From Astropecten irregularis (taxonomy: Eukaryota > Echinodermata > Asteroidea > Paxillosida > Astropectinidae), in the NCBI GenBank assembly GCA_963971285.1, contig OZ020245.1, forward strand, positions 24,318,983 through 24,382,982: a stretch of 64,000 nt of DNA, written 5' to 3'. Of this stretch, positions 3,001 through 38,035 are shown piece after piece. A program made the translations under genes and the position numbers. Numbering within the stretch: the first letter of the stretch is position 1; every line of letters begins with the position of its first letter. The notes below the pieces were generated by a model. The model saw nothing but the letters and a program-made list of their open reading frames with translations. It was not told the origin of the DNA and made no database searches.

Positions 3001-6000
3001 CTAGGTGGTTGTAGGCCTTGGTGACTTGCAAGGCATCCTCCAAGCAATGAGGCTGATCGCTGGATAGGATGTACTTGATCACCGTCTGTAAAATGCGTCA
3101 GAAAACATGAACATCTCAGGATCAAAACCTGGTCTTGCTCATTTTTTCCCATATACAATATTAATATTTACAGGTAGCATAAGGGATTGGTGAAGTTGTA
3201 TTTTGGGTAGAAGGTATTTATTTTTGTCATCTGATTTTCAAAATGCATATAATGATCAGAGATGCATTTGGCAAATGCCAACAAAATCTGAAAATGATTT
3301 ATTTGTGTTATAGCAGGATAGTCATTTATGCTCTGTGTGTAGACACACAGCACGGTACAGCAGTGCCGCAGAAAATAAGTGAATATCATCAAATGAGACT
3401 TGGAAATAAATTGTACAATTCAAAACATTTCAAGGAAAAAAAAATCTGACTTTGGGTGAAAAACAGAATACAAATCTGATTTCAGATTAAAATCTGAAAA
3501 GATGTATCTACCCGTGAAAATCTCAAAAATTGCTATTTTTTATTTTACAGTTTCTGTGAGGACTTCTTTATTACGTTTTAACTTGCAGCGTGATCATTAA
3601 TTCTACGTACCTGCGCATTATCCATGCGCACATCATCATGTCGGAGGTCGTAGTTGGCCAACATCTTCTTGAGTTGTACTAGCTTGTGTTTGCCACGCAA
3701 CTCTTCAACTCTGTGGGGTTGTACAAAGCAATAGCAACCATTAACCCAGTCGCTACCATGCCAAAAATATCTCTGAGATTTGCACCATAACTCCCAAACC
3801 TGGAAATACCAGTATAACTCTGATAGGATCAAAACATCAGGCCCTCGTAACTCTTCTAAGCATGTTATATTATTTCATATTATTATTTCGGTTGATGAGC
3901 AGTTTGCAGCAGTTTATTATTTGTGCTTAAGTAAATTAATTGGATCATCTTCTCTTGGGCTTAATTTCTGATGAGTGGTGAGAACTCTGTACTCACTTTG
4001 GATGTTTGAGGGACAAGCCTTGCTGTACAAGTTTCTCCATCTTGTCATTCCATGGCATGCAAGCATTCAACATCAGTGAATAGATACCAAGGCACTTACA
4101 CTGTATGTAGAACAACCAAACATGGAGTGGTAAAATCCCACACAAAATATGGAGAAGGGCAATATGAAAATGTAACATTTAATTTGGCACAATTTAGTCG
4201 GGACAGGATACAAAGATACAACAGTGCCCCAAAAAGACCCCCTCAAACAAGTCAACGAATAAACAGATGGATATAAAACCAACATACAAACAAATGAACA
4301 AATGAACTAACCAATGAACAGATGAAGAAATGAACCAAATGATACAAACAAATAAATAAACAAATGAAAAACAGCAAAGTAAAGAAGAACAAAGAAAAAA
4401 CACACAAAGTTGAAAACAAACAAACAGATAAACCAAATGGATACATCAACATACAAACAAACAAATGGATAAGCAAATGAACAGATGAAGAAATGAACAA
4501 ACTGAAACAAATAAACAAATAAAGAAGAAAACAGCAAGATAAAGAAGAACAAAGAAAACAGCCACACCAACAAATGGAACTAGTTACAGACCAACAAGCA
4601 AATGAACAAAGGAACAAATGATAATGAACACACAAACACTCAAATATGCAAACTGACCATCAGACCAACCCACAAACCTCAATGTCTTTGATGCAGTGGA
4701 TGACAGCTATGGCCTTAGCCTCCCAGAACGCCTCGTATACATAGGTAGCTCTACGTCCTTGAGCATAACACTTCAATAGATCCTGACAAACAGAGATACA
4801 TCAACCAAGACAAATATCATGTTTAATTACTGGTAGCATCTAATTACTGAAATGGTGGCACTCGTGTGATATGTAGGCCTTTGGATTGATCCTGCGTTAG
4901 GTCCAGATTATCGGGGGCAGTTTGGAGATGGCATTTCTTCTTAACGACCATGTATTCAAATGCCACCTCTTTCCAGGGATAATTCACGGCTGAAGTGGTT
5001 TTGGCTGTTCGTGAGGTCACCTAACACGGCGCTATAACGCATGCGCACTTATGATGAAAGCAGCTGTGCGATATGAATTATGAGGAGACACCTGATGATG
5101 ACTGGAGCAGGCTAGTTGAAACGTTGAGACCTTACCAGAAGTGCGACGAAATAAGAAGCACGAAAGTACAAATGAATATTACATGGTGTTTTTGCAAACT
5201 GATCCACATACCAATTGTCACCATGCAAAGCCTCAAATCTTTCTTGAATTTTATCTGCAAAATTGTCCCCAAACCCAACATGTTCGGCGCATCCCAACAA
5301 GCATCCACACTATGGGTTTGCCGGGGATAATCAGGACCTAGTCTGAATGCAGTGTTATAGCAACAAACACAGAGAGAGAGAGAATGAAGTCTGACCTGTA
5401 TGTACTGCAGCAGTAACTTGTCCTCATTTAGGTTGTGTTCCTGAATGTATGGTCGGACCAGTTTCTTTATGGTACCCTGGATCAGTTCAGGAGCTGCTAC
5501 ACGATCCAGCATGCGAAACACTAACGTGCTGGTAGTTTCCTGTCAACAGAAGACAAGTTAAAAAGGGTCAGGCCCTCCTAATACATTTATTACTTGCTCT
5601 TTATTGTCTTGTTTCACTTTTGAACTTACTAGTGTGTTGTGCAATTTTTTTGTTTTATACATACATGTTCATGGTTTATTCTGGTGTATATCACCCTTCC
5701 CAGAGATATCAAAAATGGCTGAGATTGCACCACAGAGCATCTAAGACCCCTTGGCCCTTAACTGGGCCATGGATCCCACTCCAAAATGGCTTCGCAGCTC
5801 GCAGATTATCTCCCAAATCCCAGCACGCCCTGACAAAAAAAAGGGTTCCCGCAGGCCTCCTCCCATGCCTCCCATCCAGTGGATCTGATAACAAGACCTA
5901 CCTGTGTGAACTCTGCTAGAGACAGCTTACACTGGTACTTGCTGTGTAGCCTCATCAGTTCCTTCAGATGTTTGATCAGTTCCTGGAGTCTACACACAGC

Positions 6001-9000
6001 TTCAGTGCAGTCGTACTCGGTATTCATCACCTAATTTACAAATTATGAGAAAAAAACATCATTTATCAAATTTCTGTACTAAATGACTAATTGCTTCTGT
6101 CCAAAGGTTAGGCTGGACTACATGAGTCCCAATGCCAAACAGACATTCATAAAAATTTCCCTGCTGTCTTTTTCCTTGTCTTTTTTCAAACTACTTCTTT
6201 CCCCCAAAAAAGATGCTTTACATGGTGCACCGTAAAATTTACTATTGTATTTGACAAAACAAAGAAAGAAAGTCATCTGAGATTGACAGTCATTTGTACA
6301 AATAATTTTGGAGAGGGTCATTGACTTACCTCCTTCTCAACTTGGACCGCCTCAGCAAGTTTCCTGGAGTTGCCAGCAGAAAGGTTGCAGACCTATTGAA
6401 ATAATCAATTACAAACAGAACGATATTGAGTGAGATTTGAAAATTGATGATATTGAGGACTTAAATTCCGTCATGAATGACCATGGCAAAGAGTAATTGA
6501 AAATTCATCAAAATCATCGAGAAAGATCTAAAGATAATAATATTATAAATACATAGTGGGTTGCTCTCCAATACCTCTGTGGAGAACTGGGCTGGAGTTG
6601 CAAGTTGCCGGCCACCAAACGATGAGGACTTGTGTTGGCTGGCAGTGAAGAAGAGCTCGGCAAACTCCAGGGAGTTGCCCGGCCAATCAATCTAGAAGAA
6701 TTTTTTAACAAAATAGAAGTCATAAGAGAAAGGTAGGAATCAGTGCTGACTGTTGGAGCAACGAGCTGAACTGGAGGCATATTGTCTGAGGGTAATACGC
6801 ATTATGTTGAGCCTGCTTTGTTTCGCCGCGGATCTTGGTCGGCATTATTTGATCTTACAAATCTACATCGCTGGCAGGCTACGCTTAAATGTGATCTAAA
6901 GCAGCTTTTGCACGCCGGATCACTGATCGCGTTGCTGAAACAAACAGGCCCATTGATAGTACTTGGATCAAGGACAAGTCTGGCTTGATCTGGCTTACTA
7001 TCAACATAGCAGTATCTGATATGCATTTCTATAGAGCTCAATGAAACATGGCACCCCATGGGTCCATAGGAATAGTGCACAAGGAAACAGATTGCGATGT
7101 CATCTTACAATCCTTTATGCTTGTGAAACAAGACAAGTGAAGAGCAGTACCTTCTCAGATATTTCCATACTTCTGGCTCTGTCTTCCATCCACTGAGCTA
7201 GAAATTTCTGGAGGAAACAAAGAAAGAAAGAAAGAAAGAAAGCCTTTTAGAAATATTGGCTTCGGCTTTGGCTTACAGCTCCGGCTCCATTTTGTGCATC
7301 CATAATCATAGAGGTTTTTTACATACTGCATCCAGGGGTGCATTCCATAAAAACAAAATGGAATGAGGCTTCTTTTGTCCACACAGAATGGCTATGATCA
7401 GTCTAAGAGATGGACCCGTGAGACCATGACAGCCTCTCTGAAGGCATGATCGGGTTCATCTACAAGCTTACAGCTTACCTTGCCCAGCGGGAACCTGTGA
7501 ATGACAAACGGGATCAAGTCTTCTCTGAGCCAGGGCAGAATCTCCGCCGATGGCGTACTCTCCGGGATGAACACAAGAACCGATTCCAGAATCTCCTTGC
7601 CTCCCGAGCTGAAGTTACTCTCAATATCAGCCTAATCAAATGACAGCCAGAAGCAAAAGATGAGTCAATTCTAAGCTGTGCCATGCTTTGCAATTAAGAA
7701 AAACTAGATAGCAATACTGGGGTCCAGCTTTTTTCATTAGGAATAGGAAACAGACATCCGGCTTCTTGTCTGACATCCTCATACTTTTATTTCAGGTTCG
7801 TTTCAGGTTCGTTTTTATTCCATACAAGTAATAAAATGCAGCAAACTGCTCATCAACCAAAATAATGACCTGAACTATATAAAATGCTTGAAAGTTAAAA
7901 ACCCTTGTAGCACAGGAGAGAAACAACGCACAACTCTACCAACATATGACCCAAGCTGGGATCGAACCAAGGCCACATTGATTAGAAGCGAGTGCCTATA
8001 AATGAACTAGCCACCTATGCCCTACCTATGTAACAACAAAACACGAGACAAGCCAATATTGTTGCGCCCATGAAGGCATGATAACTTGTCTCATGGAGGG
8101 CGCTATAACATAACTAGGGCCAGAGCCGTAAATTAAGAGAGTTTGGCCAACTCGGTTTCAGGCATCTCATTTATGATTGGTCAATAGCCCTCACGTGACT
8201 ACAAGGCGCCATGTTGGGGACCAACTTTGAGTCAATCAACTGCAATGTTTCACATCTGCCTTTGCCCTATATTCAGGAGAAATGCACATTCCATGGTTTC
8301 ATGATCACAACAAATGGCACACCATTGTAAAGAGGAATAAGGAAGCTTTCTAATGATTTCAGTTTCACCGTTCATAGATCCGTAACAAAAAAGATATAAT
8401 CTCTCAAACTTGAGTTGCAGAACTTTTTTGAGGTTTTTTTTAGACACACAACCGTTGCTAAAATAGTTTGTGCGCCCGCACGCGCGTGTGTACGCGCATC
8501 CCCTGTAGGTCCCTAACATGGCGTAGTTGGCCAAACTCTCTTTATTTACGGCTCTGACTAGCTCAGGGTAGCTATTTTGTGAACTGGCAGTCTCTCGCTA
8601 GGAAGTGACGGGTACCAACCTTGTGCCTGCGCCATATGATGACAGCTTTGGCAATCTGGGCCACCGACAGCCAGTGCAGTAACTCCTGCAGCAGGTCAGC
8701 ATGCAAGAAATGATCCCATCGATGGATACTGCAAGCAGAATTAAACATGTGCTGTATCATTCAAACAAGTATTCCACCAAAGAGACCGGGGGTCGATTTC
8801 ATGAAGCCCTACCATCGATCGTAACTCAAGTTACGCAGGATAACCCACCGTAGGGGGCTTATCCTATATAGGAGTGCAATGCATCATAAGTCCTGCGATT
8901 GATAGTTACGATGTTACGATGAGTTCGGTGAAATCGAGCCCTGATCCATCATCAGATACAGTGAAAGTCAATTTGGGACATGCACCGCCAACACAGGGGT

Positions 9001-12000
9001 GGATAGCTCAGTTGGTAGAGCACCGGTGCAGTATTCCGGAGGTTGTAAATTTGAATCCCGCTCCAGTCAAATTTTGTTCATTTTCCAATGTCTTAAAATG
9101 AATCATCAGTTTCCCTCAGTATGATGGTCATTTGATGATTATCCCATGAAACTAAGTTATCATGTCAACACTTCAAATTGACAGATGCCCTTCAAATCAG
9201 AACAAAATTTGTGTATGAAATACAACAATGGCAATCAGAAGCTGTGCTTAGGTTTTAATCAAGGGTTCAAATCTGCTGATGATGCAACGTGAACACCATA
9301 GCAAATGTATAGTCTAGCCCGTGTGAAATGTTTTTACCTGTATTGTTGACAGCCAAACACCATTTGGAAAGTTCCAAGTCGGTGTAGAACTTCTAGCACC
9401 TAAAGGGGAGACAAACAAACCAATGAGCAGTTCAGCAGACACCCAAAAAAATGTAAACACATTGCATTTTGAATCATTTTAATCAAAATCAATAACCACT
9501 ACATGAATGACGCAAGTAAGGGGCAGTCCATAAAGTAGCTTGGGGCCACGCAATGATAATCTACTCATGAACTGTGTTAGTGGCACCTTTGAGGATTGTA
9601 GTAAGTACCGTTGTTCATTCTTTGATAATTGACAGAATAAAATTAAAGAATAACTAAACTAATTCAATCATCAAATAACCACAAGGGAAATGTGAACAAA
9701 GAAAAATTGACTGGAGCAGGACTCGAACCGGCGACCTCCTGGATACTGTACAGGCGCTCTACCAACTGAGCCATCCAGTTGGGCTGTCAATTATCTTTGT
9801 TCGTTTGGCAGTCAGAAACGGTATTCAGGAGATTGCCGATTCGAATCCCGCTCCATTAAATTTTTCTTTGTTCACTTTTCAATGAATAAATAAACTAACT
9901 GAACTATATGCAGGTTTCCAAGGTATGCCCTGTTTAATGTGCACCGGGGTCAATTTCATGAAGCCCTACGATCAATTGTAACTTGAGTTATGAAGGATAA
10001 CCCATCGTATCCTACGCAGGGCTGCAATGCATCATAAATCCTAGTCGATGGATAGTAAGTTATGATGAGTTTGATGACATTGACCCCTGTGTCCTAATAG
10101 GGATTTCCACCCCCAAGAATACACTTCTTAGTCCTGGCCACCAACCTGGCCATTCAAGAAGACCTCAGACTGCTCAGTTAAACTTACAATATTGTGAAAA
10201 AATTAATGAATGAACAAGATACACATGTAAGGTGAACAGACTTACTCTTGTCATGAGGGATGAGGTGGGAAGGCTGCTGTCTTCAACTTGTTGCTCCAAT
10301 GCCTTCTGTCTAGAGAGCTTTGCAGAGGAAAAAAGCGAAAGATGGAAAGAGAACAAAAGAAATGTGACTCAATAAATGCTGCAATGTCATTCATGATTTT
10401 TCGTCGGGGAGACAGAATTATGCAAATCAGGCTTGTCCTTCACTGACGTAGATAAGCACTGACGTCAATACACCACTTGGGCATTGAGATTTGTTCTATT
10501 CGGTTTTTGTAAATGTACGGGATTATCCAAACATGAACTTGCTGAAACGCGGACCTGTCCTTCATTTTTCTGATATCATCCTCGTGTGTTAGACCTGATT
10601 AGACAAATTTCCATGAGGTGAGATTGCCCTGCAACGAGTGGGCTGGTCATGACACCACAGGGCAAAAATGCACCCAGTGTGGGAATGGAAGGAGGGTGGA
10701 CAATGGTCATAAGACATACCCTTGTGCGGGCGTAGCTGACCAGCTGGAACATGGCCTGGAAGGTCGGCAGAGTGGCCTGGATGCACTTCTCCGTCACAAA
10801 GGCCTCGTCCGGGATGTGATCCAGACACTCGATGAGATCACTGATCAGCGGGGACTCCTCGGTGTCTAAGCGCAGGGACTGGGTCCAAGGAGATGCCCTC
10901 TCAAGAAGGGTGCTCGCTTTGACTTTGAAGACCAGCTGAGCAAATGTATTCATTGTCAAAATCAAATTGTAAAACAGCCATCATTTAATCAGAATCCAAA
11001 CATAATTTCATTAACAATTGAGATCATGCTGCAAATGCATATGCATATCTTAACATGAATAATTCATGAATAATTCATGAATGATCAATTAATAATTCAC
11101 GATTGACACCTCCTCACCTCCTCGTCCAGCATGAAGAGCTTGGCAAACTGCAGGGCATCCTCAAACTTCTGCTTGTGGAGAAGACGGTGGAACCTGGTCT
11201 CAGGGAGGGCCTCTGTCAGACAGCGAACACGAAGAGAGGAGATCAACCCTGTTGTAGTTCCGTCATCATCGTCATCGTCACAAGCGCCCTCTATCAGAAA
11301 AATGGTTTCCTGTTGGATGAAATCATGCGAAATGAAATACAGTAATATCAATTTCTTTCACATTTATTTAGGTATTGAGACTCATATCTGTCACATATTT
11401 TTTTGTTACCTCAATTTGTAATATCTGTCCCGTCATGGAGTATGGAGACCATCAAACACCAGGGGCCAATTTCATGGCCCTGCTAAATTTCTGTCTTAAT
11501 AAAAACAGGATTAACAACACATTTCCATGTGTTGTGTATCGCTTGCGATTGTTCTTTGGCTGTTGTTCGCTCACTATGAACATCAAATGGTATGTTTAAT
11601 GGTGGTTTGTTTCATTAAGCAAAACATTCTGTGCTTAGCAATTTTGTTTGTGCTTAACAGCTCCATGAAATTGACCCCTGTTAACATACCTGGTTTGGGA
11701 GGACCTTAGCTAACGTTGCAAAGCCACCTACAGTCAGAGTGTACGTGCACTGTAAGCCAGGCAGGCTGAAGACTTTAAGGTAGCAGTCTGGTTCCGGCAT
11801 GGTCAGGACTACGAGCTGCAGCCTGGTCTGGTCTGCGGCCATCTGACTGTTGAGTAGAATTGGATTAGTTTATGGATTTATAAAGATTACATTTCCATGT
11901 AGAAGGGACGGTTCTGTAATAAGTACTATATAAGCACTAATGCTTTCAAAAATATCGGAGAAAAGATTTTTAAAATCCCATGGGCATTTTTCACCGTTTT

Positions 12001-15000
12001 CTCAAAAAGTAGGCACCGCACGGGATTGGGAACTTCACAGATGACTGTTATTGTATCTTCCTTGATATTTTTGCCCATGAATCTGCATTTCTTTGACAAA
12101 AACCAAAGTATGACGTTACATCTAAGTAAGGACAAGGAGGGTTTTCTAGAAAAGACCTACTGCAATATAGATCACATTAGTTGAGGTCGTTTGGGAAATA
12201 TAAAGCTACCTGATTTTATCACCGGTGTTGACAGAGTTGACATTCATCAAGAGGAAATCCTGGACCAATATGTCAGGCCAGAAAGCCACCATCAGTAATG
12301 ACTGTAAGTCCCAAGCACTCATAGTATGCTGCAAATGCACCAAGAATGTGTATTTATGAAAACTTGAACAACAAATACTGTCAAAAGAAACGATAACTTA
12401 GAATCCTCTATTTTCTTTCTAAGGATAATTGGTTGCAAATGAGCTGGGGCCCAATTTCATGAAATCCGTTACGGCCTATTTTTGTGCTTACAGGCACTGC
12501 TTCATGTGAAATCTATTTCATGGATTCCATAAGCAAGACTTTTGGCACTTCGGTTAGTGAAGAATTTCTAGGGTAACCTTGATTTTTTTTCTGCTAACGC
12601 GCTGTCATATGCAATCTGCAGAAAGCCCTTGCTTAATGTAGCAAGAAAGAAAACTATCCAGTGAAATATGCTATTACCATAACCAAACAAAGTCTGCTAT
12701 CGTAAGCGAAGACTTTTTGCTTAAGGAAATGGATTCCATAAAATTTGGCCCAGAACACAACGACATGCAGGGGATAATACTGGTACTACAAAAAAATGGA
12801 AAGGATTTGCAAGAAGGGGGAACTTACACTTTCGTCAAGAAGAAACAGGAACTGTCCATCTCCACTCACCCGACACTTCAAGACCCCACCACCTAAGAGG
12901 ATGTCAAACATTTACAACAAATAAATCAAGAAAACAAATAAAAAGAAAAGCCTTCAAACATTTGGTTTATAGTCGTGTCAACATGTTACAATCTTTGGCA
13001 TTGTCGGTTTGATACCTCCATCCAATTACACATAAATCTAAATCTTCTCAAAATATTATATCTACATTTGTGTTTGAGAAAAAGTAAAGATTTTGAATAA
13101 ATTAATAAATCGATGAATGATTTGGACACTCAGGATGAAGTAGATATGTGAATGAGAGAATGCCTACTCTCTATGAAAGTCAGAATGAAACCGTCTAGTT
13201 CCAAGACTCACCGTCAAAATAGTCACCAGTAATTTTACGGACAAGGTCCAGAGCACCACTGCCGGTCCTAGTCCACAGACCGATGACAGCATCTCCATAG
13301 CCCTACAAAAATGAGACATGCAAAGGCAATTTAATATCAATGAATGATTCCCAATTTTCAAATCTTCGTTATTTTAAGAGCCTTTACCAAAGCAGGCTTG
13401 AGACTAGGCTTGGGACTTATTTTTGCTTCCGCTATTTGAGGTCCACAAAGCAAAATGAAGGGATTGGGCCACATGACGAAGCCGAAGAAAGGCTCCAGCT
13501 TTGACATTTCATTTAGGACACAAAATGGAGGAAGCAAAATAAATCCCAAGCCTAGCCGCCTTCATGAGCCTTTTGGAGGTATTGTTCTGACACAAAAGGG
13601 CGCAGTTAAGGGAATACAGTGCCCAAAAATGTAAGCTTTTCTAATAAGCTGGTAGGGAGTTGAGAGGAGCTACTTGTTTTATTCTAGCAATGTTTCATTT
13701 GTTATGTGGGACGTGGGAAAAACTGTGGATCACTCAATTGGAGAACAACAAAATATAAGGCTACGTACAATGTATTGCAATAGATGGGCGAAACTTGAAA
13801 TTTCCATGGCCATTTCCATAAATACGTATACGTTTCTTATTTGCTTGAATCATTTTCAGAATGCTCTGGACCACGATAACATGAGCAAAACGTTGAGTTT
13901 TAATCTCATACTCAATACTCAAGAGCATGCCTCTCACTGAATATTTCTCAAACCTTGGCCACGGTTGTGCTCGGTTTTTCTGCTACATCAATGATCTCCA
14001 GAACAACATTCCTTGCTAGATCACACAATCTCCTTCAATGGTCCGTTTTTTAATCCTCCCTCAAAACCCACTTGATCCGAAAGATTTTTGCACAAAGTCA
14101 TGAGCAAAAATGAGCTAAAGTTTACACAACCGGACAGAGGATAAAGAAAATAGAAATTTTCTACTTGTTTTTACAGGGTAAACTCCACGAATCTGTCACA
14201 ATTTGTGATCTGCAAAGATGAAAACGAAGCTAAAGTTTGTTATTTCAAGCCGTCACAAGAGTGGAAAAGGAGATTACTTACACACGTAATGATCAAGGTC
14301 TTTTTCAGGTACGTGGCCGTGGTGAAGTAGCAGACTGAATCGGTGTGCGCAACGCTCGTGCCAAGACTCTCCATGTGGATACTGGCCTGCAACTGGACAA
14401 TGACATAGAGACCACCAAAATTCCACGGGACGTTATTGGATATAACAACCGGGCAAGGAGAAATTGACTGTTTAACAACCGTAAGACTTGAGAGGTAAAT
14501 ATTCTGGCAATAACATTCAAAATGTCTGCTCAAAGTGATCACATACCTCTTTAGCCAGTTTAAGATCCCTTGCTTCAATCGCTATTAATTTTGAAAGAAA
14601 AAAAAAGAGTACATTTTACTAAAAAATATGCTTGCCGCCCTTAAAACATACATGAAATAATCACTCTAAATTGAAAAGAAAAGAATGAAAGAACCTTTTC
14701 ATCTCTAAGAGACTAACAAATGATATGTTTGCTTGGAGTTAGCAGGGCCTCACATTTCAATCTTAGCAGGATCCTTTTTTTATGTATTTCATTTCATTAT
14801 TTTGATTGATGAGCAGTAATTTACTTGTATAAATTATATGTGTTTCTTTTACATTTTGTGAATCTTGGAAATATGACTGAAAAACTAAATAGCACCTTGG
14901 TTCAATTTTTCCAAGTTGATTTTGGAAAATCTGAAGAGACGTCCATCGGCCGAAAGTATCAGGAGGTCATACACAGCTGTTGGAATAAAATCATTAATAG

Positions 15001-17297: not shown

Positions 17298-19928
17298 AGG
17301 ACTAGGAGGTCCGTACGTTTAGATCCTAGTCAGGAAAGCCTTTTATAAACAAAGATCCTGCTTACTGCTGCTAGGATGGAAACGTCAGGCCCTCCCAACT
17401 CCAAGCATGGCTGGAGAATCTGTTTTCCTTCCTCCGACCATGGCAGCTCCATGCTCCAAGACCAAGGTACCAACTGACCAATCAAGGTAAGGCTAAGTAA
17501 ATAACTATTTCCTTCAAACCGTAGAACTTAGTGTTTCCGCAAACCGATCCACATATTTCCAACAGAGTGCGCTAACCGTTTATAATAAATAAAAATAATT
17601 AATAGGGCCTACTACTACTAACAGTTAGTAGGCCTACTAAGTTAGGCCTAACAAGGAATCAAGGATCAATTCAAATCCTCGGGGATTGTGATAAGAAGGG
17701 ATCCCCAAACACATTGATTATTTTAGCCCTTATGATAGCTTCTACTCCTCAAAAATGATACTTTTGACATTCAGCAAATGTTCCTGGATCCTTAAAAGCC
17801 TAGATTGAAGAAGTTTGTGCAACATTTCGGTGTAAAAATGCAATTTTGTTAAGTGCTTCTTGCAAACTTAAAAACAGCCTGTCTAATCGCGTGAGGCCAT
17901 TTTGTCTGGTCTGGTTAGTCTAGTGCCCAGACTCAACAGATCAAGAGTCTTCAAAATGTCAGAAGGCCATTTCCCACGTCACCTGACCAATCTCGGGGGT
18001 GGAAACCAGACTATTCTCGTCTGTGGCCGTCCGTGTGGCCGTGAAATGTTCCATCTTTGTTACCGTCTTTACCCCATAATTTCCCTCAAAAATCAAAGCC
18101 CTGCCCTCTTTCCACAAAATTAACCTTGCTAATAACAATGAATAATGAGGAAGAGGACATCACCAAGGTATATTTAGGCCTAACTTTATTAAATTTAGCC
18201 TTAGGAGTTAGGTAGGCCCCTAAGTAACTTCCAAAAAGTAGTGTTCCTTTCCTTTATAGTTTTGGGACCCGTCTTATCACAATCCCTAGTCTTGTCCAAG
18301 ACGTTGATTATGCGCTAGTCCGTCCAAACAATTACCCGACCCACGTGAACAAAGTGGACCATTCCACCGCCCTACGAAATATCAACGTCTTGTTTGTTTA
18401 CTCTGGTGTCACGTGACAAAGACTGAGCGTGACCTCTGTTGGCAAAAATTGCATATTCATTGAGGTCAACAACGGGGTGCAATGCGCTGTTTTGGTCAGC
18501 GTCCAATCCACGCACGTGGTATGGCGTGATACCGTGTGCATATCACGTAATGACGGTCGTTTGAAACTCAGCCGCAACCGTATTGCCATGGAGCAATAAC
18601 AACAGATAGCTCCATGGTCATTACCAAAGGCATGGCTTGATTATACTTCGATCAACTGTCATGCGGCACAAAAAGATTTCGAGAAATTGTAGGATATGAA
18701 TAAGCCGTATTTTACAGCTTTTTGGGTTATCCTCGGGCTTTTGTTATTCGTTATTTATTGTGTATTTCATGTGTACAGTACTTTTGTATGTTGCCAAAAT
18801 AAATGAATGAATGAAGGGATGAATGAAATAATTTCACTGAATTATGATACCATGGAGTCTGTTCCCGGGCTCCATGAAGACACGGAATGATTTCGAGGGG
18901 CACGGTTAGTAAATTTATTCCATTCCCATGTTGTCTAAGAGCCTTGTTGTTCTCCGGAAAACTCTCGAATCCCCGATATTTGTGTTGCAAAATCCAAGGC
19001 CTCCAAATTCAATACGATCCGTCAGCAGCCATGGTACGATATCAATGTAGGCCTACATGTACGGCACATGTAATTTACAAGTACTGTAAATACACGTGTG
19101 TATGCGTACAGTATATAATGCTTGCGACGTCGTTGAGGTACTAGACTTCATCCCCATGCAAATTTTCTAAATATATTAATGCAAATAAGGCTACGTCATG
19201 ATGCACCGACTTCGCGGGGGGTTATTGCCCGGAATTTTCCGGGCAGTTTGGAGTAAATGGACAAGACGGTATTACAGGCTTGTGTGTGTGGCGTAGACGT
19301 TATCTCGGGTCGTTTGTTGTGTTAACACGTACACGTATGTGCGATCTGTTGGCCAGGTACAACTACGTAATACCGTCTTGAACAAGACTACACAATCCTC
19401 AAATCCTCAGTCAGCATGGTCAGGGCTCAGGCACTCAGCCAGACTCAGGGCAATGAAGACAGAAAAAACATTCTAGGATTCATTATTAACTAGAGCCGGA
19501 ATAGTATTAGGCCAAGTTAAGTCCAAGTTATTGTCTTATTCACGATTTTGACATGACCAGGCAGTCCGCCTCCTACTGACTGTCCAAGTGCTACTGCTAC
19601 TGCATGTGCACTGTCCTGTTGTTGTAATAAGTTGTATGCAGTACATAGGCGCCTACTAACTAACGTTAGACCTTAGGGCGTTAATAGGCCTACTAATTTG
19701 GGGCTCCAGTCACTGGACCTACATATATTCAAGACACAACATTCTTGGAAAGAATTCCATTGACATCGCCTCCAATATTAATAACTTACTTCAACAGATA
19801 CTAGATGTATTTACCTGTTTTCTCGCACTCAAATCTTGCCAAAATCCACTTATTTCTGTGTTATGAAGTTCCCGCGATGTGTTGGTGCCAATAGAGGGCG
19901 TCATCAAGTAATAGCTTGCGTCGTATTT

Positions 19929-20057
19929 GGGTGCGTTCGTTTAGCATCCACGGGGCATCTCTGATATGGGAATGGTCTTGTTCACTGTACAAGTTAAGCG
20001 AGAGGGTGTCGCTAAGGTTGACTGGTGTCGACTCGTTGAAGGTAAACGAACGCACCC
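19929..20057. mobile_element. 129-bp MITE with 15-bp inverted ends upstream of EGLN
   Basis: Perfect terminal inverted repeats GGGTGCGTTCGTTTA / TAAACGAACGCACCC. The right end is 48 bp before the EGLN ATG, so the element probably lies in the promoter or 5'UTR. No clear target duplication was found. Confidence 0.72.
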
Positions 20058-20069
20058 GAGGATGCAATG

Positions 20070-20092
20070 ACGTGCATTTGTATACGTGCGTG
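20070..20092 (+). promoter_or_regulatory. Cluster of three hypoxia-response-type cores before EGLN
   Basis: ACGTG at 20070-20074 and 20084-20088 and GCGTG at 20088-20092 match the HIF core RCGTG. They are within 36 bp of the start codon, in a gene family known for HIF-driven negative feedback. Short motifs occur by chance; function is inferred. Confidence 0.4.
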
Positions 20093-20105
20093 TTCAAACA
20101 TAAAC

Positions 20106-26678
<6,573 letters not shown>

Positions 26679-27368: not shown

Positions 27369-27664
27369 AAGCCTGAAATATGCTAATTCCCATTGATTTG
27401 GGTATCATTGTAAATATTAAAGATAATCAAAATTATTGTATATATATGTACATGTAAGAGACCTACACATAGCTGGTTAAAGTATATACACAAATTGGTA
27501 AATGCGGGGATTCCTGCTTAGCAATGCTTTGAAAACCTTTTAGCAAATTAAGTTCAGTTAATGCCTTCTTCATTGATTTGACTATATTTTGCATGCACAT
27601 TCATCAATCTGAATTTCCCCGGACTGTAAAGGTTGCTTTTTTTATCATAGGGAGCCTAATCATT

Positions 27665-27870: not shown

Positions 27871-28650
27871 GAAATTATCACACTTGTAGTGCTGGACGGT
27901 TTGCATGGTGGATTGGCAATTAGTTGTAAAGCTTTCAGTGACACTATGTATATTTCTCTCTCTCACTCTCTCTCACTCTCTCTTTGTTTTTCTGTAGTAT
28001 ATAGATAATAATGATAATATAGGACATTTATGTCTCTGTAATGTTGCTTTTTTCACAATCTTCGACCTTTTCGCAAAGCTGTTAGCTCGTCTCACGTGAC
28101 GGTAGATCATGTACATGTAGGCCTTTGATTGTGTTCATTCAGCACATAATTATTGCTTCTGTAGTAGGACTTCCATGGGTGAGAATGCAGAATGCATTTT
28201 CCCAATAGAAATCCGACGCATTCTTTGACATTTCTTTAACTCGAGTTTACCTTCCTTAAATCGGCAAAAACGCGTATCGCTACAAATGCATCTTGTTTAG
28301 GCAGCGGGATTTGGGTGTAGCGATTAACTCACATAAATCATTCCTTTCCATTGATGTATGGGCATAATTCATGTAGTTGATATCGAGTTCCTATTTCTTT
28401 GTGAGGATTCAGCTTTTCAGGCGGATATTGTTCGAGACTTCTCATTGTCATGGCTAAATGACATGTTTCTCTCATTTCCCTATACCGGTAGTCCTCTCAG
28501 CTCGGGACCTGCTCACACAATAATAGCCATCTACTGGTAATTACCGCCTGTTTAGATCATTTTCCCCGCCGGCGGGAATACGATTGATGACTTGTTCTGA
28601 GTCGAAGTTATCTTGGTGGAGCCATGGAACAGGCATGCAGTCCTTATAAG

Positions 28651-29040
28651 TTAAATGTAATTTCATACTTTGATTTTTGTCAAGGAAACGCAGATTCATG
28701 GGCAAAAATATCAAGAAGGATACAGTAATTGCCACCTGTGAAATTTCTAGTCCCATACGGTGCCCACTGACAGTGAAAACGCCCACAGTATTTTTCAACG
28801 TTTTTAATAATTTTGGTCTTCCTGATAACAAAATTGTTTTTTGGTCAATTGGTTTTACTCTTTTCTAGACTTTATAAATACAGCAGTTCAGGAAGAAAAA
28901 AATTAACGGTATGTTCCTTCCATCACCATCTTTATACCCTGTGAGTTATAGGTAAATCTGTGAACATTTCTGTTTCGGTATATAGGCCTATAACAGTCAT
29001 GTGGGCCCTATATGCTAACAAAGTATGGTAGTACGTTTAA
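28651..29040 (+). mobile_element. TTAA-type MITE, about 390 bp, decayed ends
   Basis: Begins TTAAATGTAATTTCATACTT and ends ACAAAGTATGGTAGTACGTTTAA in inverted relation. Interior blocks CCATACGGTGCCCACT and CATCACCATCTTTATACCCT are shared with 42257-42629 and 45350-45709. Confidence 0.78.
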
Positions 29041-30074
29041 TGAGCAAAGTAGCCGCGAGACTGCAGTTGACCAAGATGGCATAGCCGCTGCTATATTATT
29101 ACATTCAGAATTTTTTTTTGCAAGTTTGGGTTGTGCAACATAAATTGGACTTTTCTCGAAAAGGGATGTACCTGTACATGTATTGAGACCTATTTCAACC
29201 AGCATTTGATGTTTATTTAAAAGAAAATTTTTATTTCTTGATGTATATAATTACCGGTACACATTACGTGCCTTTTCATTCAACCAGTATGGTACATGTA
29301 TTTTTGTTTTTTTTGCAATCCCACATAGAATGTCACGTCATGTATAAGGTCAACATTTACAGCATATTAATCTTTTTTCGTCGGAATGATGTTATGTTTA
29401 TCTGTTTAAGTAGGCCTACTCTTGTTTTTGTTTTGTTTTTGTTTGCTTTTTGGGCTACCTTAATATAATTAATCAATATTACACATATTCTAAAAAGACT
29501 AAGGGAAGACATTTCTGATTCTTTATTGCGTTCGTCATTCAGAACATAATATTCAGGAACCATTTAAATTAGCCCAACAGATGATAGCGTCTTCGTAATG
29601 CAAAGATATGTGCATCTATGATAACTTACAGTTTCAAGCCGTCTTGTTTAAGGCTTAAGCTTAGATTCGTGCTGACGAGAGTTCTATATAACTCAAATTA
29701 AATTGATTGGAAAAAATCATTTCATATAGACAATAGACAAACATAATGAATGGCCATGAATTATACGTTTCCACATGCACGTAATTCTGTATACGGCCTA
29801 TAGTCTTAAGAATAGTGCACCTTGCGGCAGGAAACGTTTGGACATTAGTTACTATGTTGCCTCGCAGCTGACAATATATACACCTTCCTGTTTGGGGAAG
29901 TGCTTGTGATGTAAATTCTATACGTAAATGAAGACATTTCCTGGTGTGTTTTTTTGCATTGTGTTATTGATGTCTGTTTAATTGTATGACGACTAGTGTA
30001 TAAGTCATCAGGCCCGGGTGTTCATTAATACATGGCATACTTTATGCAGCTATAGGCCTATACCGAATGTTGAA

Positions 30075-30250
30075 CCATTGAGCTTCTTGCCGGGTGGTCT
30101 ATATAATAGTGGTATGCATTTACACGGGTCGTCTGTTTGAATCCTACCTGAGCCAGCTTATGATTTTATTTTCATGTGCACTCAAAAAGCACTGAGCACG
30201 CAGTGCTGAAATATACGTCGGTGGATGGTAAGCCTAATTTGCATAAAAAA
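30075..30250 (+). repeat. tRNA-derived SINE, plus copy
   Basis: Same family as 23850-24030: TGCCGGGTGGTCTATATAAT, TCTGTTTGAATCCTACCTGA, then TTTCATGTGCACTCAAAAAG and a GTCGGTGGATGGTAAGCC body. Confidence 0.65.
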
Positions 30251-30645
30251 AAGTTACGGTCGTTTATAATGGAGATTACGATAACCCCATATCTTTCTTC
30301 TAACATGTTCATAATTATGTTACACACCCCGTTGTTCAACCATACTGTTCACGTTGGCTCGCAACGTTCGCTGCATGTTGATTATGTTACATCAGGTTAT
30401 TATTCCGATTAATAAGCAGTCTGCAGTATATTGTTACTTGTATTTTGTAATTTAAAAATGTTATTTAAGCAGCTTTTATGCATCGAATTAATGCTCTGGC
30501 TTTAGTATTATATATCTCATGATGCCAGAAGTTATTATTCTCAAATAATGTATTCTGAGAATTTCTGAATGGCGTTCTAAAATTAAAACTGAGCTGAGTT
30601 TCATGATTTGGAAATGAGCGCTGGGATTAAGACGAAGACACTTGG

Positions 30646-31128
30646 CATTGAAGCTGAAGCTCCGTTTTCTTGTTCAAACCAGAGAATCTACTTGAGAACC
30701 GCAGCCAAAAACCTTTTTGTTGATATCCGTTATATTGAGAATGGATTCACGAAATGGTACAGGAGCCGAGCTTAGAGTGCGCACGTGCCTAAGCCACCAA
30801 TCAGAAGCACGCTGTCTCCTGATTGGATGGGGTATCCTCCAATCAAGGATCAAGACCCAGTGCGGCCAAAACTACCAAGCACAGATATTGAGACCGCGCA
30901 AGTGTCTTCATCAGCATGACAAAGGCTATAGCTGTCCGCAGCCGAAACATTTCTGCCTTTCAGCCAACATTATAGGAGGGTTACGAAACGGAGGCTCAGA
31001 CTCAGGCTCCAGCTCCATTATTTTCGTGAATCCAAGTAACATTATGGGCATCAAAATAGAGGCTTTTGGCTGCGGTTCGGAATTGGATTCTCTGGTTTGA
31101 AAGGGGAAACAGAGCTTCAGCTTCAATG
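30646..31128. mobile_element. Foldback element with ~65-bp inverted ends
   Basis: The left end CATTGAAGCTGAAGCTCCGT and the inverted right end agree over about 65 bp, including CAAACCAGAGAATC and ACCGCAGCCAAAA. The centre contains CACCAATCAGAAGCA opposite CTGATTGG. It carries a 127-codon frame that looks accidental. Confidence 0.75.
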
Positions 31129-31163
31129 AAAAACCACAACATGTATTTTTCAGCACATGACAT

Positions 31164-31337
31164 CAGTATAGTGTAGACACGTCCTCAGACCTGGGGGGGG
31201 GGGGGGGGGGGGGGTTGATCGTGTAGCTGGGTCGTACTTCCATATACGTTTGTGCACAAAATCATTTTTATATAATTATAAAAAGTAAAAACCTGGGGGG
31301 TTGCAACCCCCCTAGCCCCCCGGGATCTACGCCCATG
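31164..31337. mobile_element. Second hAT-like non-autonomous element, 174 bp
   Basis: The 8-bp sequence CATGACAT lies on both sides (31156-31163 and 31338-31345). Ends CAGTATAGTGTAGAC and (inverted) CATGGGCGTAGATCC are degenerate inverted repeats. It has G-run/C-run subterminal blocks and a CTAGCCCCCC motif like the element at 26686, and a pure G tract at about 31194-31214. Confidence 0.7.
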
Positions 31338-31345
31338 CATGACAT

Positions 31346-34300
31346 GATAGAGATGGAACCTGAGCCTATACGCGCAGTTTCTTATAAACGCCCATACTGA
31401 ACTATACACGTTGTGTGTGCGATGTTGATATTCCCAGATCTGCGCGGAATGAAATTACTAAAATGGACAACAAAGAAGAATCCTGGACGTTATACATTCA
31501 AAATGTTTAAAATGATTCAACCCGTTCTTCCGCATACGCATAATCGAATTAGCGTGCTAATCTTATATCTAACATAACAACAACAACAACAGCAGCAGCA
31601 GCAGCAACAACAACAACACGGTGTTTCCTTCGCGGTTGAACTTGAGCCGCCGAACTTGAACCTTGTCTTGAAATCCAACGCGCCTTCGCGGGAGACGGAC
31701 CCACCGGGAATCGAGCTGAAATTCGGTCTCTCTGGATCACTTTTCATTATTTTAGATTCATTCTTCGTCATCAGTGTTTCTTTCTTCTTTTTGTGATTAA
31801 TGCAGAATGATTTTGTCTGGAATTTTAACTTGCACGCCAGTGAATTGTGTTTGGTAATGGGCATCGTCTCAGCCTACGCTCGTGTTAGTTTTTTCCTATT
31901 TTATTATGTGTTTTTTTTACAAACGCACAAACAGCGTTGAAAAAAGATCGTGTTGCCTGCGACGCACGCACGCCATTTGAATGTTGCAAGTGGCACGTTC
32001 TCCTTATTAGGCAGTGAGCTGAACATTCTAGGAGGCCTTGAGAAAAATGATGGTTTTCGTCTTAAATGTTTTATAGTACACACTTTAATATATTCTTTAA
32101 TGTTAATGAGCAAGTTTCTGTTGACCGGCAAAATTAATGATGCGCATTGCAAAGGAAATTATTTTGCATTAGAAATGAGGAAAACAATGCATGCGATTGT
32201 CTTCTTTGTTTTAGGAGCAAAGTGGAACTATATACCCAGCATTGATGTTGGCGAAGTCTCAAGTTGCCATTAAATTATGGATTTCAATGGATTATGATCT
32301 AGTCACTTTAATTGTTCCTTTGCATGCATGTGGTTTTTTGATAGAAACATTAGGCCCTCTTTCCTCTGAACATTATGTTCTGCATGGTCATTAAGGAGTG
32401 AATTTATGAGCAGTTTGAAGCAGTTTATGGCTCATGTTGTGTAGATAATTATGATTCAAATTAATTTGACTGTTAAATGGGAGCATGTTAATGTTGCATT
32501 GCTGGACCACTGCCAACAACTCAATAATGCGTCCATTCCACCTTTGGCTCATGTCCAAAGCCCGTTCAATTCCTAACAGTGGCGATTGCCAAGAGGAAAG
32601 GGTTTGTGAACAATCAACCACCACGGCGTCGAGTATTGCCAGGATTATTATACGATTCAATTCCCATTTTTATATAGACATTAAATTTTGATGGACAAAA
32701 CTCAGTGATACGACGCATTACTGTACTGCATGCCTATCTCGTCGCACTTTCGGGTATAAGAATATGCAACACTCTGGTCACACGCTCGACTTTGACTTAT
32801 TAAACATCAATCTTCTTATTAACTTTCACCTCCTGATTACAAAATATGCCGATTTTATACTTGAGGGCAAATGGTATTTCTGTTATACAAGCTTCTGAGA
32901 TAATCAGTTATAAACTAAATAGGCCTAAGGTGGTTAGTCTGCACAAACTGCTTTAAAAATAACTAAACGATATGCATATGCCTACTCATCTAAATTGCGT
33001 GTGGATGTAAATGGCACTGTCTCGTTATAGAAGGAGTGATGTGTTTGAAATCATCATTCTTTTGAATTAAAATGTCACATTAAATTCAAATGGTGCTAAA
33101 TATAGCATAATGGAGTTTGCATATAATAGAGTATAAACACGATGGGAATTATATCAACATTGATGCATTCAAGAAAGGCCGAAAACGCATTCATAAAATT
33201 TATACATGCAAAGGCAACTAAATTGAGCATTTTCGCCCGTTGTTGTTGTTTTTGTTTTGTGTTTTTTTTACATCTGCACAATGAATGGCAATTTTTTTTC
33301 TGCGAAACTAGACATTTCAAAAAAAACTATCGCGATTTTGAGACTCTTGTTTCGGTCATATTTTTGTCATCGGGATAATTTTCTTTCCCGAAATGTCGTC
33401 TTATAAACATTTAAAACGATTTAAAAAAAAATTCAAGTCTGGATTTCAATATAAAAATGAAAAAGTGCACATTCGAGACAGGACAGACGACGTTGCGAAA
33501 CAACAATCCCAATTATTATAGATTCCATATGTGAAGAATTTTTCATTTCTTTTTATGCACAGTTTATCACTCTGCTGGTTCCTATTTTCACTGCAGTTTG
33601 TTGCAACTTAGCTTTGCTGATCAATCTGAAACGACCTGCCCCAATAAAGTATAATAATCTGCAGTTATTTTCATATCTAAATTGTCTGTCTACGTTCCTA
33701 GTCTTCAATGCATTTTGCAATTATCTAACATCATTTATAATTATAGAGGTGTGTTAGTTTGAACTATACAAACCGCAGAAGGGAGTCCCATAGGCTTCAA
33801 AATCGAAAGTGCGAATTTGCCTCGCAGCAATGGTTTGGCAACTGGAATAATTATAATCTTACACTGAAATAAGTCACTTTTTATTTTTAGTGCATGCACT
33901 GCAGTAGTGGCTAGTACTTTTCCATGATAACGTTATATAATTATTGGATCCGGAATTTGTTTATTTGCTAAATTTAAAGGGTTTGGTATGATACAAAACC
34001 CTGTAAATGATTTCGATCGTTCAGTGTATGAAATTCCATTTAAATGTTATGTTTTCATTGACAGTGTTCTGAATCATCGACACGATTTTGTCTGAAAGAG
34101 TATTAGCATATTTTCCTCAAAACAACAACATAATTATCCATTTTCCTAAACGGTTAACTGTGGTTTCAGATGCAAATTATGGTCGAGTGTGCGTTATATA
34201 GAGACAAACGATATATCACATCAGTGGCAATCAACTTAATGCGTAAGTAATGTGCGTCACACTGACGTATGACCGTGTTTTCAAATTCAGTCATAAATAC

Positions 34301-37300
34301 TTTGTTTTTGGATCAGAACCCCTCGATAGACTGTCCAATTTATAAGACGTAATTTGAACGGATTGGAGGTCAAACGTCAGCCATCATTGGCGCGGTGCAG
34401 GGTGGAAGACGTGACATATTTTCTCAGTTTTACGCAGCGAGTGTAATTATTGGTTTCTTAGTTTCATGTGCCCTTTTGCAATGATTACTATATACAGCGG
34501 CAAGAGCTGTCTTATGTTTTCTTAGGAGGGATGCATAGTTTTAAGTTTGCTGCTGAATCAACGGTATAGTTTGCATGATGATAAAAAACCCCAGATATTT
34601 ATAAATACATGTATAATGCCTTGTTTGTGTGCAGATATTTCATCCCTTTCATATTTATTTTGTTAAATGTTATTTGTAAACATTTTGTTCTGCCCAAAGT
34701 TCAGTTTGTTGAAAGTTTGCCTACAGACTTTGAACAAATAACAATTTAATTTTTTAATCGAAATCATGACTGTTTGAGCTAATTCGATTCATGAAATTTA
34801 CGAATGTGTCAAGCCAAGTGGAAACATGGAAAACACACAAACAAACCGACAAACAGTGAGACCAATTGCCTGGTTGAAGAAACACACAGGCAGACAGACA
34901 GCAAGCAAACCAACCAACAAACAGATATATATTCATGGGTGTAGCATTTTTGTGTAATGTTGTATTCATTATTTATTTGCATCTACAACTGTTAATTTCA
35001 TTTCATGTTTATTTCATGTAATTTATGGCCCAATGACCAGGGAATGCGCCACGAGTGTCTTTGGACAGAATGATGTGTGCGCCGGAATAAATTCCGAATT
35101 CTTATTATATTATTATTCATGCATGTGCTGATGCTATTTATTATTTAACTGTTATGTCACAGGGACTTAGATGAGGAGGTTGTGAAGTTTTACAGGGCGC
35201 CCTCTTCGTCTTCATTTCCATCCGTTTCGATTACGTAAACACATTTCGTAAAATAGCACATAATTATTTTCGTTATAAAAAAAACGAAATGCTTAACATG
35301 AAATAGTGTTCGAAATTTCCCAAACGAGCTTACCCATTCAACTAAGTGCCTTCAAATCATAGACTAGGCCTATTGGTCTGGTAAAGAAATGTAACCGGAA
35401 CTTCAAAATTAAAATGATTGAGCAAATAAATCATTCCACTTAATCTAAATAAGTCGGGCTGGTATTGTTAAAAAATATGAATACATCAATAAATAACACC
35501 AACTCCATATCACAGAGATAAAATACAATGGTTAAAAACTCATGTTTGACACTTGTTTTCTGATAGTAGAGATGACAAAGTCCGGCTCTCCGATTACCAG
35601 ACCTAGCCCTTTGATCTAAAACAAGTCAGAACCGGGTTATTGAATAGTTTGACCGACTGTACCACCGCATGTATAGGTCTGCAGGATGTACACATACCTT
35701 ACATTGTGCGTCAAATTTCCAACAAAAGGGACCTGGTAATATTAACCCAGCCATTTCACCTTGTGACGTTATAAGTCAATGTTTAACCCGTATATGATAA
35801 TATAATAACATCAAAGGATTTGAGTGACTATGGGACACAGAACGAAATCTGTGTGATTTTGTGCCCGGGTATACCCAGTCATAAATTTTGCGTGCATTAA
35901 AATTGATATAAAGGTATCAAACTCGGGGTTATTAGGTGAAAGGTCATCTTTAAGCGTCCATTGACGATCTCGGCAACCGGATTTTGTTTTGTTCACCTGT
36001 ACAAACTTGATGTTTTCGTTCCTATAGTGCCGCTGGGATGGCCATTGCTAGGACAAAGTTTATGACAGTGTGACAAAGATAAATTGTACTGTTCAATGAG
36101 CAATCACCGCTATTATGTCGAGACAGTAAGTCAATATTTCAACATATTCGAGTTGTAGTTATATTTGCTCATCGGGCCGACAGTGTCATAAAAAAAATTG
36201 CACAAAATATCTTGATTATGACAATAAATTTACTATGAAGCTTATCGCATTTCCAGGGAATGGAGACATTAGGGGGTAATTAACGTGTAGCAGCATCAAG
36301 CCTTCAGCTTTCCACCATTAATGTCTATCCGCCCAAAACACCTGCCTCGCCTCTTCGTTTCGCTGAAAACAATTAATGACTTTTCAATCTGCGATTCAAA
36401 ATTCAAAGAGTGGACGTAATTCAGACCATATTTCTTTACTAATGAGGAACAAATGACACTGAAGTTAATACAGAAATGTGAAACCGATACTTTCATGAAT
36501 ATGAATGATTTTGTTCGGGAGATCATGAGGTAACATGCAAATTACGCTTGCCCTTCACCGACGTGGATCAGCACTGCATATATCCAGTGCTTGTTGAGTG
36601 CACATGTAAAATGTACGCGCTTGCACAGGTGGGATACTTTCATGATGATATTCTTCAAATTAAATATACATGTATTTTAAACCGATTTTCAGATTGTGGG
36701 CAAAATGGTAAATTGAAAAAAAAAATAGGGGAGGGTGTCTTGAGCCGATTTTTGAACCGGCGTTGACGAAAAAAATCACTGTTGCAATTAACAATTTTCA
36801 GTCTTCTGCCATGATTTTGAGAAGGTCAAGAAAACACGTATTCAAAGGACACATGATGCAAATGGTTTTATGGTCTTTCAGCCAATCGAAACCTACGGCC
36901 CTCCTAACATTTGAATTTACACCAAACTGCGTCACGATTTAAAAATTGATGATGGTACATAATTATGCATGTGCCTATGGATTCGAATGAAACCCACATG
37001 CATCATGTTGGTTTTATATTCCCCAGATTACTATCATTTACCCCGCCTGCCTATTGCGCATGAGCGATTGTATAATAACCAACGTATATACGGATTCAGG
37101 GGCATTCATAGCTATTTTGACGCTCGACATCAGTGGTACATGTATTCATCTTCGATTCAGATGGCTGCTTTCATTGGGTGACAAGACAAAGAATAGGCCG
37201 GAGAAAAGAGGGCCCCCCGAACGCCAACACTGTCCATTGTCCACTCTCCTTGCAGCATCGATCGCGTTTAACCTCCCTCTCAGACAACCGGTCAACAAGA

Positions 37301-37849
37301 TCCTCTTCATTTGACTATCAATATTTGATGTTGATGTACAGCACCACACGCAGGTGATGAACACACGGCCGGCGGAATTACACATGTTTCTACCCTTGGT
37401 ATCTCTCGTTGATTGGTGTTGTCCGTAACCATATACCAGTCGATATCTTGATCGTGATGTCCGTTGTGCGTCCGTGTTGCTGATAACGGAAAGGTGAAGG
37501 AGATATACGGACAGGTAACACGACTTGTTTGGTTTGGTCATCGATCAACCGGGATTCACTCGGTGTTCGTTCCATCATCTACGCCAACTGGCAACAAGGG
37601 GGAGTCGTCCAGCAACCTGCTGCTTGCTTCCGTTCCACATCGATGAAGTGAACTGGACCGTTAAATGTGATGCATGGTTTCCATTGGAGGAGCAACTTTA
37701 TACAACGAAAGGTGAGGGTGCACTTTTACTGGCAATTTTTCTTTTAAACTTACAACAATCCGTATTATTAGTTTGGGAACAGAATGTGACATTACATCAG
37801 CACTTTTCCGGTTGCCTATACACAGTGTATGGAGTATAGACAAGTAAAT
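31346..37849. other. Gene-free AT-rich stretch
   Basis: No coding exon with recognisable similarity was seen on either strand. It contains a CAA/CAG microsatellite (31577-31618), several short A or T runs, and a SINE fragment (36530-36605). The small open frames are unsupported. Confidence 0.6.
36530..36605 (-). repeat. SINE body fragment
   Basis: TTGCCCTTCACCGACGTGGA and CCAGTGCTTGTTGAGTGCAC match the body of the SINE at 23850-24030. The tRNA head is absent. Confidence 0.6.
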
Positions 37850-38035
37850 AGAGAATCTCCTGATGAGGACTAGAGCAGACTAGTCGAAACGTTGAGACCT
37901 ATTGCGAGAAGTGCGAACGATATAGAAGTGCGAACGATATAGAAGTGCGAAAGTACGAACGATAATTACATGGTGTTTCCGCAAACCGATCCACATACCA
38001 ATTGTCACCATGCAAAGCCTCAAATCTTTCTTAAA
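37850..38035 (+). repeat. Dispersed retroelement-like repeat with hammerhead-like motif, copy 2
   Basis: Holds CTGATGA (37860-37866), a perfect stem GACTAG/CTAGTC (37868-37873 and 37880-37885) around AGCAGA, then GAAAC (37886-37890). Then come short tandem copies of GATATAGAAGTGCGAAC, and the body shared with 5160-5260. A third body fragment is at about 17519-17570. Confidence 0.6.

Follow-up and report, generated by a model that had tools for sequence, protein, structure and literature searches.

Minimal type I hammerhead ribozymes reportedly occur in Penelope-like elements (PLEs), where they are said to have been described by Cervera and de la Pena in 2014 and by Luense et al. in 2017. Helix-III-poor type I hammerheads have been described for PLEs (PMC7761336; PMC7229834), and hammerheads that act as dimers need a palindromic stem III and, in eukaryotes, also motifs in tandem (PMC6466107). 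The Poseidon element of Anolis, a PLE, carries the PAc hammerhead in its terminal region (PMC11167929). The Penelope families of the rotifer Adineta vaga have an optional 31-bp tail within the start of the open reading frame (ORF), target duplications of 9-10 bp and mostly head-to-head inverted pseudo-long terminal repeats (pseudo-LTRs, pLTRs), and that paper uses neither the word hammerhead nor the word ribozyme (PMC3846280). Metazoan retrozymes, for their part, have circular RNA of about 170-400 nt and tandem repeats with type I hammerheads (PMC7229834). Here we analyze 64,000 nucleotides of the genome of the asteroid Astropecten irregularis (contig OZ020245.1, positions 24,318,983 to 24,382,982, the window), in which a first-pass annotation had noticed a hammerhead-like core in two dispersed repeats. 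As judged from their bases, these repeats carry a minimal type I hammerhead, a kind already known from PLEs. We consider it probable that they are solo pseudo-LTRs of a PLE retroelement, each starting with such a ribozyme, and that the ACGU strands of two copies would pair, with the double hammerhead trimming tandem PLE transcripts.

Read directly in the sequence, both motifs are present on the plus strand, at 5092-5122 (copy 1, CTGATGA-T-GACTGG-AGCAGG-CTAGTT-GAAAC) and at 37860-37890 (copy 2, CTGATGA-G-GACTAG-AGCAGA-CTAGTC-GAAAC), and CTGATGA..GAAAC occurs in only these two places in the window (0.19 expected; two or more in 1 of 100 shuffles). The boxes, the 6-bp stem, the 6-base loop and the GAAAC are as first annotated, but CTGATGA does not join the stem directly, as had been described, since one extra base (T in copy 1, G in copy 2) intervenes. 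In copy 2 the 5' strand of stem I, UCUC (37856-37859), has its partner at 37894-37897; the core CUGAUGA, from C3 to A9 (37860-37866), is followed by the unpaired extra G (37867), by stem II GACUAG/CUAGUC with the loop AGCAGA (37868-37885) and by GAAAC-GUU (37886-37893), which holds the core GAA, the stem III strand ACGU and H17 as U. The cut is predicted after 37893, before the 3' strand of stem I, GAGACC (37894-37899), which pairs here over 4 bp and in the consensus over 6 bp. The core, stem II (5100-5117) and GAAAC-GUU of copy 1 span 5092-5125, with the predicted cut after 5125. In both copies the core CUGANGA...GAAA is exact, stem II has 6 bp counting G.U, and the cleavage triplet is GUU. 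The core, the triplet and the stem III strand thus fit in both, and stem I fits in copy 2, where 4 bp stand against the single base pair kept in copy 1. Copy 2 could still fold and take part in a hammerhead with a 4-bp stem I; the ribozyme of copy 1 is probably dead, so that the idea of a decayed form, raised in the first-pass annotation, holds for this copy.

The aligned copies give the family consensus GGTCTC-CTGATGA-(T/G)-GACTAG-AGCAGG-CTAGTC-GAAAC-GT(T/C)-GAGACC, in which stem I is GGTCTC/GAGACC; other copies have the triplet GUC, and H17 is not G. Stem I is paired in 220 of 228 cells in arrays and in 208 of 276 in dispersed copies, where 3 of the 46 rows belong to family F4 (F1-F6 are working names of this analysis). 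The extra base before stem II is also present in the aligned rows of sister families. The stem III strand is a self-complementary ACGU without a loop, and we take its nucleotides to be A15.1-C15.2/G16.2-U16.1 in the usual numbering. Because this palindrome lacks a loop, stem III would close only between two copies. Four palindromic forms were tested, namely ACGU (the window family, F2, F3 and F5, as tested), AGCU (locus L100), ACGCGU (L060) and AAUGCAUU (L102). The core CUGAUGA/GAAA, stems I and II, the triplet GUU and the loop-less palindromic strand can all be read off directly. The part after GAAAC, at first called non-canonical, is GTTGAGACC, the cleavage triplet and the stem I 3' strand expected in the helix-III-poor type; this portion, GUU|GAGACC, completes the hammerhead. 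The family thus shares with the minimal hammerheads of PLEs the core, stems I and II and a reduced helix III, as well as dispersal by the thousand in a metazoan genome and a pseudo-LTR association, and differs from them, as they are described, in the extra base before stem II and in 54-bp arrays of single ribozymes (PMC7761336; PMC6466107).

The motif is abundant in the 475.7 Mb of genome scanned. The pattern CTGATGA..GAAACGTT has 2,329 matches as against 13 for the reversed pattern, the rows listed among them also taking in tandem arrays and some few members of sister families, and a second pattern, CTGANGA..GAAACGTC (1,182 matches; control 76), reveals further families with other stems. Two scans of viral_contigs matched no relatives, and a 72-base DNA search returned nothing despite the plentiful copies and is therefore uninformative. 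A covariance model built from 15 sister sequences, none of them from the window family (R1), finds copy 2 at 37854-37899 with 49.0 bits (E 1.6e-11) and copy 1 at 5086-5131 with 34.6 bits (E 1.9e-7), the next-best window match reaching 12.3 bits (E 0.36); these matches partly reflect sequence likeness to family F2. The F5 and L100 rows were left out of R1 because the aligner misplaced their gaps, as were duplicates and rows of odd length (L027, L087 and one L084 copy). With a model of eight F3 and F4 sequences only (R2), the window copies have E-values of 1e-5 and 2.9e-4 and the next match 0.23, the E-values from both models being rough. Models drawn from other families thus find both copies, and the claim that a dispersed repeat holds a hammerhead-type motif is upheld.

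Between families, 72.7% of 150 cells are paired, compared with 59.5% after shuffling (0 of 500 shuffles reach this), and the covariation score is 0.466 vs 0.256 shuffled (0 of 500), with slid versions at 0.226 or below. Two further measures fall within the shuffles, the double-change pairs (60 of 500) and the further pair types (260 of 500). A separate pairing count among the matches listed gave 79 distinct 34-nt rows, or 71 after removal of 8 F4-like ones; in the latter, 382 of 426 cells are paired (shuffled mean 357.4, maximum 370), and 33 rows are fully paired, not above the shuffled maximum of 34. The Rfam models match neither window copy, at gathering threshold or at E up to 10, and at gathering they likewise report no hammerhead across 12 loci, the majority of which hold other minimal hammerheads (no canonical positive control was run). 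The model test proposed in the annotation, for which the lack of a score above background was to count as refutation, has a divided outcome: R1 and R2 match both copies, and the Rfam hammerhead models give no score. Silence of this kind would suit a chance resemblance, that is, a hairpin repeat without ribozyme ancestry. We regard this as very improbable, because the core, the triplet and the two stems are shared by families set apart by double, pairing-preserving stem changes and are also seen beside PLE reverse transcriptase frames. A SINE (short interspersed nuclear element) or an unrelated hairpin is likewise disfavored by the covariance models and the between-family covariation.

The repeat around the ribozyme has a consensus of 160 bp. 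In the aligned copies its left end lies at or near stem I; on the right it stops at GATCCACAT or continues for another 36 bp, ending after ACCAATTGTCACCATGCAAAGCCTCAAATCTTTCTT. Among 59 element pieces, 24 carry this tail, 12 stop at the shorter end and 23 end otherwise; arrays L009, L079 and L080 and duplicate loci L002, L010 and L011 are left out of the count, and one piece (L084) belongs to F2. The longer 3' end, which not all copies possess, holds CACC-ATG, and the last 27 bases of the element have 1,876 genome matches with at most one mismatch (control 0). Copy 2 is a whole element of 176 bp (37857-38032, plus strand) including the 36-bp tail (37997-38032), with CACC-ATG at 38010 (ATG CAA AGC CTC AAA TCT TTC TT). 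It is flanked by an exact target-site duplication TAAATAGAGAAT at 37845-37856 and 38032-38043, of 11 or 12 bp, as the first T of the right duplication is also the last base of the element. A 17-bp tandem duplication (AGAAGTGCGAACGATAT) lies within copy 2 at 37907-37951. Copy 1 is the same element (5091-5245, plus strand) with its tail at 5210-5245; it has no clear target duplication, the best being 8 bases with one mismatch, inside the control range. Each copy stands alone in the window without a tandem partner, and a 25-bp orphan piece without a ribozyme (17531-17555, plus strand) matches element positions 117-141 exactly. The 3' end was recognized in 33 of 43 copies, and target duplications of 11-13 bp (score at least 8) were found in 4 of these 33, two of them with one mismatch, and in none of 320 shuffled flank pairs; the left flank of several copies is another copy of the element. 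Head-to-head neighbors number 449 (20 in the control), every place being matched on both strands; this is an upper bound, as some of those listed are other sequences. Five loci (L006, L067, L072, L074, L075) have in common an upstream CCTCAT..TCAAYC just before GTCTC, either a shared target repeat or part of a longer element.

The optional tail, the short target duplications and the head-to-head neighbors resemble those of known PLEs (PMC3846280; PMC11167929), and the repeat is therefore read as a solo pLTR, which bears out the PLE lead of the first-pass annotation. All three features have counterparts in the Penelope families of Adineta vaga, in which, however, the pLTR itself has the first 12 codons, whereas here the ATG is only in the tail (PMC3846280); that ATG may be the start of a PLE frame. 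Shortness (a 160-bp consensus), the lack of a visible reading frame, target duplications and a high copy number would also be expected of a non-autonomous retrozyme or SINE-like element that borrows PLE machinery and is not a solo PLE pLTR. Short repeats with type I hammerheads are indeed known from metazoan non-LTR retrozymes (PMC7229834), and direct hammerhead repeats do exist in this genome, with 56 adjacent pairs, many of them in three arrays (control 0). These are few against the 2,329 matches, whereas known retrozymes are tandem and most invertebrate ones form a stable helix III, in contrast to the loop-less helix III found here (PMC7761336; PMC7229834). The optional CACC-ATG tail, moreover, points to the beginning of a PLE frame, and we hold the retrozyme or SINE-like alternative to be unlikely.

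No full-length PLE carrying the ribozyme or the tail of the window family was found, so that the pLTR identity rests on anatomy. PLE-type proteins are encoded in the genome: one reverse transcriptase query has at least 123 matches, and GIY-YIG has 60, including one or more on contig C94, which looks bacterial. Locus L060 matches RVT_1 with 28.8 bits (cut-off 29.6) and GIY-YIG with 26.8 (cut-off 22.6), and a 926-aa (amino acid) frame at L100 matches RVT_1 above the cut-off (34.4 bits) and GIY-YIG weakly (19.9; cut-off 22.6). The L100 element has a minimal hammerhead, CCC-CUGAAGA..GAAAGCUU-GGG, both upstream of this frame and at its end, and on the minus strand of this locus (C19:4588500-4592800) the stop codon TGA of the frame falls within the core CTGAAGA. 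L099, L101 and L102 match RVT_1 only. At L102:2244-2276 a reverse transcriptase element without a GIY-YIG match is followed by CTGATGA-GTCC-GTGAAC-GGAC-GAA, a motif with a palindromic stem III AATGCATT and a 5-bp stem I, without the extra base before stem II and without an Rfam match at gathering threshold. An F2-like hammerhead at L063:422-467 (plus strand; 49.2 bits with R1), with GGAAC replacing GAAAC, lies about 5 kb from the PLE of that locus.

As candidate parents, the young PLEs with reverse transcriptase and GIY-YIG at L060, L061 and L063-L065 were set aside, the family motif not being found in the stretches fetched, and the same holds for L099 and L101-L103, in whose fetched stretches the window-family motif was not found. 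Tandem 5.2-kb units with paired motifs (L021/L022) were also rejected as the autonomous element; the L021 frame examined is a DUF4371 protein, not a reverse transcriptase. Bordering the PLEs at L060, L061, L063, L064, L065 and, by eye, L022 is a repeat (..ATACTTTGGTTTTT.CAAAGAAATACAGATTCATGGGC..) or the other end of it, as if it were favored by PLEs or host to nested ones. Contig C94 (L029, L059) is small and encodes a protein with a GIY-YIG match, which we take to be UvrC-like, along with a transporter-like frame; it looks bacterial, from a symbiont or a contaminant.

In the mechanism that we propose, the ACGU strands of two copies would pair within one transcript or between two, and the resulting double hammerhead would cut at GUU|GAGACC, trimming tandem PLE RNA. 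In a single copy stem III could not close, and such a copy should do almost nothing without help from a partner or the PLE protein. Insertions would have arisen by reverse transcription of RNA still holding the ribozyme: of the 59 pieces, 43 start where the ribozyme starts and none at the predicted cut site, a biased count, as presence of the ribozyme was the reason for fetching most of the loci, and the inserted RNA seems to be uncleaved. The tail of the lizard PLE is explained by two neighboring internal sites at which reverse transcription begins; in vitro, uncleaved RNA is the main insertion substrate and ribozyme mutants leave insertion unchanged (PMC11167929). Cleavage by the PAc ribozyme was measured and needed the protein, and no RNA ends were seen at its cut site (PMC11167929).

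Apart from the silence of Rfam and the missing full-length element, several observations weigh against solo pLTRs whose ribozymes act as pairs. The absence of pieces beginning at the cut site is one, since the count, biased as it is, shows no trace of cleaved templates, and the position of that site is another, 117 bases before the tail ATG, whereas the PAc ribozyme overlaps the ORF start (PMC11167929). The tandem arrangement required according to PMC6466107 is rare here, as the few adjacent direct pairs indicate, although pairing between transcripts would not need it. In the L060 array the stem III strand is ACAU and not palindromic. The predicted folds are also unfavorable: at minimum energy some of the core bases are paired with AACGUU, and the best fold is lower in energy than the hammerhead fold both for the consensus monomer (-17.6 vs -15.4 kcal/mol) and for copy 2 (-11.4 vs -10.8 kcal/mol), as is the best dimer fold (-38.2) compared with the double hammerhead (-31.3 kcal/mol). 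Relative to shuffles, the fold z is -1.77 for copy 2 and -0.22 for copy 1 (consensus -3.49). Finally, variation inside the window family looks neutral. In 43 copies, 19 stem II pairs are altered, of which nine are one-sided changes to G.U and ten are broken, with no double changes.

These counts bear on the argument of the first-pass annotation that compensating changes between the two window copies suggest selection on structure. Both differences are single-sided changes to G.U, and since only one-sided or broken changes occur, compensation between two copies is no evidence of selection. The covariation in stem II that the annotation had looked for is thus present between families and missing within the window family, and copies with unpaired stem II, named there as a refutation, occur to the extent of the ten broken pairs. 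The compensation argument fails, and the hammerhead conclusion, as far as sequence can carry it, stands on the other evidence. The same pattern, together with the unfavorable folds, the rarity of tandem pairs and the decay of the core in one array (13 of 35 units intact on C19), would fit a dead relic, a former PLE hammerhead of which no present copy cleaves and whose conservation reflects recent common ancestry only. Against this, 796 genome matches (control 0) retain the core, a 6-bp stem II and three pairs of stem I, so that apparently intact forms persist, and the core is kept in 20 of 21 units of an array on C1; this evidence is weak because recent spread would explain both. We find the relic explanation rather doubtful, while giving it real weight.

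The arrays consist of 54-bp units, each a single hammerhead plus 8 bp, at L009 (C1:3250300-3252700), L079 (C19:4733700-4736500) and L080 (C22, core intact in 4 of 7 units). In the L060-type PLE and its arrays a U3-A8 hammerhead replaces C3-G8, which is not the window form. A pattern with positions 3 and 8 as Y and R has 3,736 matches (154 C3, 82 U3-G8 and 3,500 U3-A8), and the C3 rows listed are, with a single exception, mismatched C3-A8, so that the 3-8 pair is not strictly kept. Natural U3-A8 covariation has been reported, with prior in vitro activity cited, and U3-A8 was therefore dropped as a novelty; the hammerheads described there match those of the L060-type PLE and arrays, here with about 3,500 matches (PMC3088659). 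The U3-A8 arrays have periods of 37-42 and 60 bp and the C3-A8 arrays of 50 bp, and such arrays lie at L060 (minus strand, about 879-1594 from the end), C1:2648632-2649739, C1:2942769-2943156 and C19:8163133-8163760. It is conceivable, and in our view a long shot, that some ribozymes left the retroelement and became satellites of near-bare hammerhead units, comprising the 54-bp arrays on C1, C19 and C22 and the 37-60-bp U3-A8 or C3-A8 arrays. If transcribed, neighboring units would dimerize via the palindromic stem III to yield monomers of about 54 nt, which might circularize.

The window and the loci fetched hold some further features. An exon with a MYND finger, recognized by domain match, lies at 20046-21188 and is presumably EGLN-like. 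Two short 54-bp tandem pairs at 49747-49853 and 50291-50396 have related sequence around CAGAAAAGCAG, and a 216-bp satellite of 54.7 copies (95% matches) occupies 52161-64000, reaching the window's end. At L095:410-454 (minus strand) a histone 3' untranslated region stem-loop (Rfam RF00032) lies beside hammerhead copies.

Rfam models can miss the class of minimal hammerheads. If the satellite idea is true, its monomers of about 54 nt would be smaller than the 170-400-nt retrozymes. The solo copy, the 74-bp pairs, such as the one at C8:10320666-10320779, and the 54-bp arrays are ready-made constructs for asking why PLEs keep a ribozyme. With several hammerhead families, different stems and four palindromic stem III strands in one genome, A. 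irregularis would offer a natural experiment on whether, as proposed, the hammerheads of PLEs function as dimers.

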